Shown here piece after piece: positions 4,574 through 6,075 of a DNA stretch of 35,904 nucleotides (position 1 is the first letter of the stretch; each line of letters opens with the position of its first letter). The notes under the pieces were generated by a model. The model saw only the letters and a program-made list of their open reading frames with translations, made no database searches and was not told the DNA's origin. Both the position numbers and the translations under genes were made by a program. Source of the stretch: Rhodobacteraceae bacterium REDSEA-S34_B6 (GTDB taxonomy: Bacteria; Pseudomonadota; Alphaproteobacteria; Rhodobacterales; Rhodobacteraceae); assembly GCA_001627925.1 (NCBI GenBank), contig LUQC01000086.1:1-35904 (forward strand). Reading direction: 5' to 3'.

Positions 4574-4987
4574 ATGTTGCAACCAAAGCGTACAAAGTTT
4601 CGTAAAATGCATAAGGGCCGCATAAAAGGTGAGGCCAAAGGTGGATCTGACCTTAATTTCGGGACTTATGGGCTTAAGGCACTCCAACCAGAACGAGTGA
4701 CTGCTCGACAAATAGAAGCCGCCCGTAGGGCTATGACTCGTCATATGAAGAGACAAGGTCGAGTATGGATTAGAATATTTCCAGATACACCAGTTACCTC
4801 AAAACCAACTGAAGTTCGGATGGGTAAAGGTAAAGGTTCGGTAGATTTTTGGGCTGCTAAAGTAAAACCTGGCCGAGTTATGTTTGAGATTGATGGTGTG
4901 AATGATGATACAGCAAGGGAAGCTTTGCGTTTGGCTGCAATGAAACTGCCCATTAAATCTAGAGTTGTTGTTCGGGAAGATTGGTAA
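4574..4987 (+). CDS. rplP: Large ribosomal subunit protein uL16
   Basis: A 137-residue L16 with the canonical start [16 protein letters not shown], the core [20 protein letters not shown] and the loop [13 protein letters not shown]. Arg82 of this loop corresponds to E. coli L16 Arg81, which is hydroxylated in E. coli by the 2-oxoglutarate oxygenase YcfD/RoxA. L16 contacts the A-site tRNA elbow and is a late-assembling 50S protein. rpmC normally follows at once; here an oppositely oriented putative 2OG oxygenase gene starts its stop codon 70 bases downstream, which makes the Arg82 site interesting. Confidence 0.97.
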
Positions 4988-5057: not shown

Positions 5058-5678
5058 TTAGTCCGACCACTTATAATTGAAACTAATCGATATTCTTTCG
5101 CCTTTTGAGCCATTCTGACGTACTTCGTGTCTCAACCAGCTCTCCCATAGAAGCACTTCTCCTGCCACTGGATGGTGGCTATGAAAAGTTTTTAAGTCAT
5201 TTCGTGCGTCTTTCTTTCGTGGTGGTGCTGACATCATAAATTGTAGTCTGGGATCCTCAAACCGTATTTCGCCAGCCTCATTTGGAATTGATACATATGT
5301 CGTGCCTGAAATTACTGAATGTGGGTGAATATGCGAGCCGTGTGAACCGCCCTCATCAAGGATGTTGATCCACATGTCCTCCAAAACAATATCTCGGTCA
5401 TCAAGGTCAAAGTCTAACTTTTCTACAAAGTTTGCCACGTGACTGTCCAAAATATCTTTTAATTCGTTAAAAATTGGGAAACGCCATGTTAGGTCTGAAA
5501 GTGAGGCATAGCTGGTATACCCGGAATATCCATTATTTTCGCACCATTGCTGGCCAGCTAGATCATCTTCCGCTATTGAGCGGCAAGATACTTCCAGCTC
5601 TGAAATATCTAATTCACCTCCTCTGGATAGGTTGGAGAGGTACAACTGCGTTACGAATAATGGCGTTATCGACTTCAT
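5058..5678 (-). CDS. Putative 2-oxoglutarate/Fe(II) oxygenase (TIGR02466-like)
   Basis: A 206-residue protein if started at the ATG at 5678 (MKSITPLFVTQLYLSNL), which matches how this family usually begins; the frame is open for another 32 codons upstream, but that stretch is lysine- and aromatic-rich and unlike the family. Features: histidine cluster SHGSHIHPHS (residues 112-121), SGTTYVSIP (124-132), GEIRFEDPR (136-144), GEVLLWESWLRHEV (173-186, His184 a likely iron ligand) and ERISISFN (194-201, whose Arg is placed to bind 2-oxoglutarate). These suit a double-stranded beta-helix hydroxylase of the TIGR02466 type, known from marine bacteria and phages. The substrate is not known. It lies antisense in the ribosomal array, convergent with rplP and divergent from rpmC, so read-through from rplP would make antisense RNA to it. 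No clear ribosome-binding site is seen. Family assignment fairly sure, function inferred. Confidence 0.75.
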   Translation of the reverse strand: MKSITPLFVTQLYLSNLSRGGELDISELEVSCRSIAEDDLAGQQWCENNGYSGYTSYASLSDLTWRFPIFNELKDILDSHVANFVEKLDFDLDDRDIVLEDMWINILDEGGSHGSHIHPHSVISGTTYVSIPNEAGEIRFEDPRLQFMMSAPPRKKDARNDLKTFHSHHPVAGEVLLWESWLRHEVRQNGSKGERISISFNYKWSD

Positions 5679-5821
5679 AGGATGTGTATAAACGAAGCTG
5701 TTTTTTTTTAATAGCGATAATAAATTTTTCAATGGGTGTTGCCATTTAATAAATAAGACTGTATGTCGCCTCATCCGGATGTGATTTGTCGGAATCGCAA
5801 CCGTAGTAATTAGGTAATGTC

Positions 5822-5859
5822 CACCAGATTAAGAGTGACCCGCCAGGGGCTCACTGGTG
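5822..5859 (+). promoter_or_regulatory. Hairpin in the rpmC leader
   Basis: CACCAG (5822-5827) pairs with CTGGTG (5854-5859). Inside it GTGACCC (5835-5841) can pair with GGG...TCAC (5846-5854, with a small bulge) around GCCA. The outer and inner stems share base 5854. The structure ends 18 bases before the rpmC start. Because the oxygenase gene separates rpmC from rplP, the genes from rpmC onward either depend on read-through or have a promoter in 5775-5877; TTGTCG near 5786 and TAGGTA about 19 bases on are only a weak match. Confidence 0.4.
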
Positions 5860-5877: not shown

Positions 5878-6075
5878 ATGAAAGCCCAAGAGTTACGTGA
5901 AAAAACACCAGATCAGTTGCGTGAGCAGTTAGCTGCATTGAAAAAAGAGTCGTTTAATCTGCGTTTTCAGCAGGCAACTGGTCAACTTGAAAATACTGCT
6001 CGTATGAGAACCGTCAAACGCGATACGGCGCGTGTTTTAACCATTTTAACTCAACAAGCAGTTTCTGAGGAATAG
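5878..6075 (+). CDS. rpmC: Large ribosomal subunit protein uL29
   Basis: A 65-residue L29 ([36 protein letters not shown]...), an all-helical two-helix protein at the peptide-tunnel exit that helps form the trigger factor and SRP docking area with L23. The family signature [19 protein letters not shown] is intact and the length is normal. It starts the distal part of the ribosomal array after the antisense oxygenase gene, behind the ribosome-binding sequence AGAGGAT. rpsQ follows after 10 bases. Confidence 0.96.

Follow-up and report, generated by a model that had tools for sequence, protein, structure and literature searches.

A TIGR02466 oxygenase gene marks a family-wide split of the S10 ribosomal protein cluster, and a candidate leader heads the separated half

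The S10 ribosomal protein cluster, a highly conserved bacterial gene cluster, is cut between rplP and rpmC throughout the Rhodobacteraceae, and the gene of one enzyme, an oxygenase of the TIGR02466 family, marks the cut. A covarying hairpin at the head of the separated downstream half is a new candidate ribosomal-protein leader. The family-wide split marked by one oxygenase and the presence of this candidate leader are both solid results. The fuller account that joins them, with a junction oxygenase of the protein-hydroxylase type beside a separately controlled downstream half that has its own leader, is favored here with moderate confidence. In a cluster where the L2 leader is the only one that Rfam detects, the hairpin is an additional candidate, and it points to a way in which a divided operon may regain control of its second half.

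The window, meaning the whole stretch of 35,904 nucleotides that was analyzed, comes from Rhodobacteraceae bacterium REDSEA-S34_B6 and is contig C97 of a 2.4 Mb assembly that is 96% complete. Its oxygenase gene separates rplP from rpmC and runs on the other strand, toward rplP and away from rpmC (Table 1), and no other gene was seen in the window's rplP/rpmC insert. The gene is real: its product belongs to TIGR02466 over its whole length (253.3 bits against a curated cut-off of 62.5, E=1.7e-75, residues 7-204), and matches both Pfam 2OG-FeII_Oxy_5 (E=3.1e-34) and the PDB chains 2rg4 and 3bvc (E about 1e-82). These matches, together with the open reading frame, bear out an earlier note on this DNA, which had described an antisense 206-residue 2-oxoglutarate (2OG) type oxygenase splitting rplP from rpmC. 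An alternative in-frame ATG upstream, at 5774, would give an oxygenase of 238 aa; the family matches begin at residues 3-7 of the 206-aa form.

Table 1. Features of the split ribosomal protein cluster in the window (positions of the forward strand).
Feature	Position	Strand	Basis
L2-Alphaproteobacteria ribosomal leader RF03142	2274-2342	+	69 bits (Rfam 15), directly before rplB
rplP (L16), at the end of the upstream half	4574-4987	+	ORF and family match
TIGR02466 / 2OG-FeII_Oxy_5 oxygenase gene	5058-5678, stop included	-	206 codons from ATG at 5678
Possible rpmC promoter, TTGCCA-N17-TATGTC	5739-5767 (TTGCCA 5739-5744, TATGTC 5762-5767)	+	By eye; picked by neither scan
Covarying hairpin, candidate ribosomal-protein leader	5820-5859	+	Alignment, covariation, covariance model
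rpmC (L29), at the head of the downstream half	5878-6075	+	ORF and family match

The position of the oxygenase gene is conserved well beyond what one sequence could show. The positions of TIGR02466, L16, and L29 matches were compared in 121 genomes drawn from the window's order, every one of which falls in the window's family. TIGR02466 scores over its cut-off in 100 of these, and the high-scoring form is found in 98; G057 and G110, which have a low-scoring paralogue only, were left out of the carrier count. In 96 of the 98 carriers no more than 3.9 kb separates the oxygenase gene from rplP or rpmC, and the gene may be on either strand. It is flanked by both genes on one contig in 89 (90 with G111, which was counted apart because its rplP is 640 kb off, the oxygenase gene being 1.5 kb from rpmC). 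Six further carriers have it beside one of the two genes, the other having moved or standing on another contig (G030, G044, G059, G082, G083, and G096), and two have it elsewhere (G018 and G073). The gap between rplP and rpmC measures 0.9 to 101 kb in the 89 genomes with the oxygenase gene in between, and 105-2745 bp in 21 family members that lack the gene there.

A second set of named loci gives a similar distribution, with 68 of 80 oxygenase genes between rplP and rpmC, 9 beside one of them, and 3 with neither in the DNA examined, although this set is biased to the window's family since only the best 80 matches were kept. Among the named relatives, which belong to the Rhodobacterales, are Roseovarius, Marivita, and 'MED-G08'. 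Within the window's own genus, the oxygenase gene stands beside rplP in 10 of the 11 other genomes that have rplP, antisense in all 10; in the eleventh, G413, the contig stops 5 bases past the L16 match. Ten family genomes (G059, G043, G028, G003, G032, G111, G096, G077, G083, and G103) also hold a second, low-scoring TIGR02466 copy elsewhere.

In the high-scoring genomes of other families, the gene occurs away from rplP. The class-level sample of 289 genomes held 4 of the window's family and 285 of other families. TIGR02466 scores over its cut-off in 69 of the 289, and above 200 bits in 20 genomes of other families, where the oxygenase gene is on another contig than rplP (16 genomes) or at least 68 kb away from it (4 genomes, of which G182 is the closest). 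The place of rplP was obtained for 30 of the 31 other-family genomes examined, including all 20 that score above 200 bits. In all 17 junctions that were read, comprising 15 of the 20 high scorers together with G302 and G262 (G282, G388, G259, G182, and G304 were left out), rplP and rpmC are spaced by 17-86 bp with no gene between them. A search for conserved neighbors of the oxygenase gene in other families, using 1.5 kb flanks and crude ORF calling, gave only two shared pairs among 77 neighbor ORFs at 20 loci. The earlier note had proposed a survey of gene order in relatives, and this survey finds a fixed place within the family but no linkage to rplP in the 20 genomes of other families.

The second mark of the split is a hairpin that is conserved across the family within 200 bp upstream of rpmC. 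In the window, an asymmetric internal loop joins its outer helix of 6 bp to an inner helix that has a two-base bulge on the 5′ side. The hairpin alignment holds 60 of 105 non-redundant rows; the 45 rows left out include some with long loops (for example L022, L028, and L142) and some in which no hairpin was seen (L160, L178, and L197). Across the alignment, 97.3% of 838 cells pair, and both sides change in 9 of the 14 pairs. Changes on both sides occur in 94 cells, where shuffles give 19.5. The score for covariation, which no shuffle out of 500 equaled, is 0.377 compared with 0.162. When the partner is slid by 1-3 columns, pairing falls to 40-55%, a comparison that favors the drawn structure because it was drawn from the same rows. 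The window hairpin taken alone folds only modestly better than shuffles (z -1.75).

A covariance model built from these rows finds a match in 116 of the 121 family genomes, the exceptions being G014, G061, G083, G095, and G110. In all 116 the hairpin lies 27-36 nt before the L29 match on the same strand; since the model rows come partly from the same genomes, the count of 116 is no independent test of the structure, but the fixed place is. G089 has a second, weak match elsewhere. In other families the model found the hairpin in 0 of 285 genomes, under strict filters and with few candidates scored per genome. The hairpin is present in 21 of the 23 drawn genomes without a high-scoring oxygenase, and thus goes with the split operon, not with the enzyme. 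Two family members without the hairpin, L160 and L197, share by eye another stretch before rpmC, GGAAAAGCG ... CTTCTGATGA, which is perhaps a different element; L178 is also without the hairpin.

The hairpin resembles the L2-Alphaproteobacteria leader RF03142 in being a covarying structure directly upstream of ribosomal-protein genes (PMC7247131), and differs from it in gene (rpmC) and in structure. With RF03142 found before rplB, the cluster holds at least two leader-like elements. Against Rfam 15, the hairpins of the window and seven relatives gave no match at the gathering score; a search at E up to 10 also gave no relevant match. Table 1 of Eckert and Weinberg 2020 (PMC7247131) has 20 leaders, among which an rpmC leader does not appear, and a term search of its main text finds neither 'rpmC' nor 'L29'. 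The results of our literature searches likewise contained no printed rpmC leader.

In the favored account, the split severed rpmC and the genes that follow from the upstream half, and the downstream half would start from a promoter of its own and carry the hairpin as its leader. A TTGCCA-N17-TATA pattern precedes the hairpin in many family members (100 of the 105 rows were examined), the best -10 element falls 24-28 nt upstream of the hairpin in 40 of 100 rows, and the mean best promoter score is 7.89 as against 7.08 for shuffles. The leader's probable ligand is a ribosomal protein of the downstream genes, and binding would let that protein repress its own translation. Alternatively, the hairpin may only stabilize the 5′ end of the mRNA or set basal translation without binding a protein. 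A single short hairpin just before the ribosome-binding site would suit such a role, and no likeness of the hairpin to 23S or 5S rRNA was found, while the 16S stretch reads N. However, in its inner part the sequence (GU-N-AC, GGC) is as well kept as the pairing, which a mere stem would not need. The non-leader role is a minority possibility, and the hairpin is best treated as a candidate leader of the separated operon half on the comparative evidence.

The enzyme itself has a double-stranded beta helix fold, as seen in the AlphaFold2 model (mean pLDDT 83) and its Foldseek matches. Its closest structural relatives are 3bvc, from Roseovarius nubinhibens ISM, and 2rg4, from Oceanicola granulosus HTCC2516, both TIGR02466 members that are 61-62% identical to the window protein. 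The model superposes on them with a TM score of 0.77 and an rmsd of 7-8 Å, so that parts of the model are off. The protein of locus L124 is that of 3bvc, identical from residue 6, and the L145 protein matches 2rg4 from residue 2; both genes sit between rplP and rpmC. Two such junction proteins have thus had crystal structures since 2007-2008, under titles that give no function and make no mention of a place in the ribosomal cluster. The results of a literature search on TIGR02466 contained nothing beyond a cyanophage genome.

Beyond 3bvc and 2rg4, 2OG oxygenases make up the best Foldseek matches, and many of them belong to the prolyl-hydroxylase group. The fold matches listed include Burkholderia and Shewanella oxygenases, 4j25, 4iw3, a Dictyostelium PHD, and human PHD2, as well as the small-molecule oxygenases HygX, MysH, and TlxI. 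The likeness to Pseudomonas PPHD (4j25, and 4iw3 with EF-Tu) and PHD2 is one of fold (Foldseek E about 2e-6 to 4e-5, TM 0.35-0.63), at 10-21% sequence identity. The predicted fold is prolyl-hydroxylase-like and not like that of the JmjC enzyme YcfD. YcfD (RoxA), which hydroxylates L16 at Arg81, shares the 2OG oxygenase class with the window protein, whose gene neighbors rplP in this bacterial family; however, YcfD is a JmjC protein (PF08007), and a Pfam search of the window protein at E up to 1 returned only PF13759 and PF13640, with JmjC_2 not found. The earlier note had called the enzyme unlike YcfD, as the Pfam profile and the fold matches confirm. The structural comparison that it proposed matched TIGR02466 structures and the prolyl-hydroxylase fold, but brought out no likeness of the YcfD type.

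The usual metal site of Fe(II)/2OG oxygenases consists of an HxD/E...H triad together with a 2OG-binding arginine. In the window protein the place of HxD reads H116-x-H118, with H184 and R195 kept, in a register taken from the sequence. H113, H116, H118, H184, and R195 are invariant in all 79 family rows and in a set of 21 rows that includes other families. An HxH motif thus seems to replace the usual HxD at the metal site, which would be unusual, and in the same register it would set the window protein apart from PPHD and PHD2, which have HxD.

The product would work in trans, as a stand-alone Fe(II)/2-oxoglutarate oxygenase with the prolyl-hydroxylase fold. Its most likely reaction would be the hydroxylation of a protein side chain, although its neighbors do not point to the target. 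The earlier note had suggested that the oxygenase modifies L16 or a neighboring ribosomal protein, and this finds no support here. As that note observed, the window's L16 has Arg82 in VRMGKGKG, but the residue is invariant in all 117 rows, with or without the oxygenase gene, and is thus uninformative as a target. A scan of S3, L22, and L16 found no column that convincingly tracks loss of the oxygenase gene. L16 residue 96 (window numbering), which looked striking in a first scan, was tried as a site: across 124 genomes it is K in 96 and R in 3 with the gene, and K in 15 and R in 10 without it. The column ranks only 15 of 177 variable columns with just 5 well-supported independent pairs, a number too small for any test, and taken alone its branch-share estimate gives P 0.01-0.07 by event count, before correction for 177 columns; the candidate was rejected. 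YcfD-type genes score over the cut-off in 11 of the 121 family genomes. Among the ten with a clear match, 9 carry the oxygenase gene at the junction and not one is without it, so that the two co-occur and the junction enzyme is not a simple replacement of YcfD.

A broader version sees the substrate in L16, in some other protein of the ribosome, or in a translation factor (EF-Tu, for example), and the hydroxylation as what keeps the gene in the cluster. Several points favor it: the place is kept in 96 of 98 carriers, the P. putida prolyl hydroxylase with EF-Tu (4iw3) is among the fold matches, few genomes of the family have a YcfD-type gene and the window's genome has none, and 2OG oxygenases do act on proteins of the ribosome and on EF-Tu (examples are YcfD, OGFOD1, and the EF-Tu hydroxylase; PMC4682802). 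It is nevertheless unlikely, given the lack of rplP linkage in other families, the free orientation and changing insert content within the family, the absent residue signal, the coexistence with YcfD-type genes, and the breadth of a fold class with 314 PDB matches at E up to 0.001. Ribosome hydroxylation by this oxygenase is thus unproven, with support limited to position and fold class. More doubtful still is the specific proposal that it is an oxygen- and 2-oxoglutarate-dependent modifier of the family's translation machinery, with a three-histidine metal site, which is kept in the cluster and with the rpmC leader marks a cluster of two separately controlled halves. Action on a small molecule or another non-protein target, with the place a frozen accident, would agree with the fold matches to HygX, MysH, and TlxI and with the scattered places and lack of shared neighbors in other families. 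Yet no pathway gene stays with the oxygenase gene, and the nearest characterized folds are mostly protein hydroxylases, which leaves this reading a minority possibility beside the favored one of a protein hydroxylase.

The gene probably reached the junction in a single entry near the origin of the window's family and would have stayed there since, being lost in some lineages and repeatedly inverted. When presence at the site is mapped on a quick-method tree built from six ribosomal proteins (117 rows), 8 changes are needed compared with 32.2 for shuffled labels, a pattern that fits one gain plus losses, although the change count cannot prove the direction of change. A second, weakly supported tree (124 genomes, three proteins) needs 13 changes. 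Oxygenase distances follow those of the ribosomal proteins only moderately (Mantel r 0.36, a value reached in 0 of 2000 permutations), and the nearest oxygenase neighbor is among the three nearest by ribosomal proteins in 41 of 79 rows, so that some exchange or re-entry of the gene is possible. As a measure of coding constraint, dN is 0.025 and dS 0.063 in one genus pair, and dN is 0.029 and dS 0.266 in another. The alternative raised by the earlier note, that this is only a mobile gene that landed here, has in its favor the variable orientation and insert content and the existence of distant relatives in cyanophages. As a recent event it is refuted by the one place common to 96 of 98 carriers. 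Phage relatives are few (6 records, all cyanophages, 25-42% identity), and neither scattered sites in close relatives nor close phage copies, as would mark mobile cargo, were found; we give a recent landing next to no credence.

Orientation bears on a further suggestion, a growth-linked switch in which transcription from rplP runs convergently into the oxygenase gene and silences it through antisense RNA. Convergence with the S10 transcript holds in the window and in all ten assessable relatives of its genus, and a scan found no terminator-like site between rplP and the oxygenase gene in the window. However, only 51 of the 89 countable family junctions are antisense while 38 are sense, and on the six-protein tree orientation changes 14 times among 79 rows, so silencing as a general purpose is very unlikely. 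In four members of the window's own genus (L066, L068, L069, and L070), a G+C-rich inverted repeat that runs into T can be seen by eye to occupy the space after rplP, which also speaks against a switch; the scan shows it to be absent from the window.

Single entry, followed by retention with losses and flips, remains the preferred history, and the content of the rplP/rpmC inserts varies around the oxygenase gene. A crude ORF caller, which found the oxygenase itself in just 45 of 68 inserts, gave as the next commonest insert gene a cluster at 22 of 68 loci, with products of about 250 aa (e.g., L125:5183-5938 (-)) and no Pfam match. Also, the insert of one genome contains a partial second L16-like stretch (G102:C3:277272-277448 (-), profile positions 73-132) at a distance of about 1.4 kb from the complete rplP, possibly a duplication remnant.
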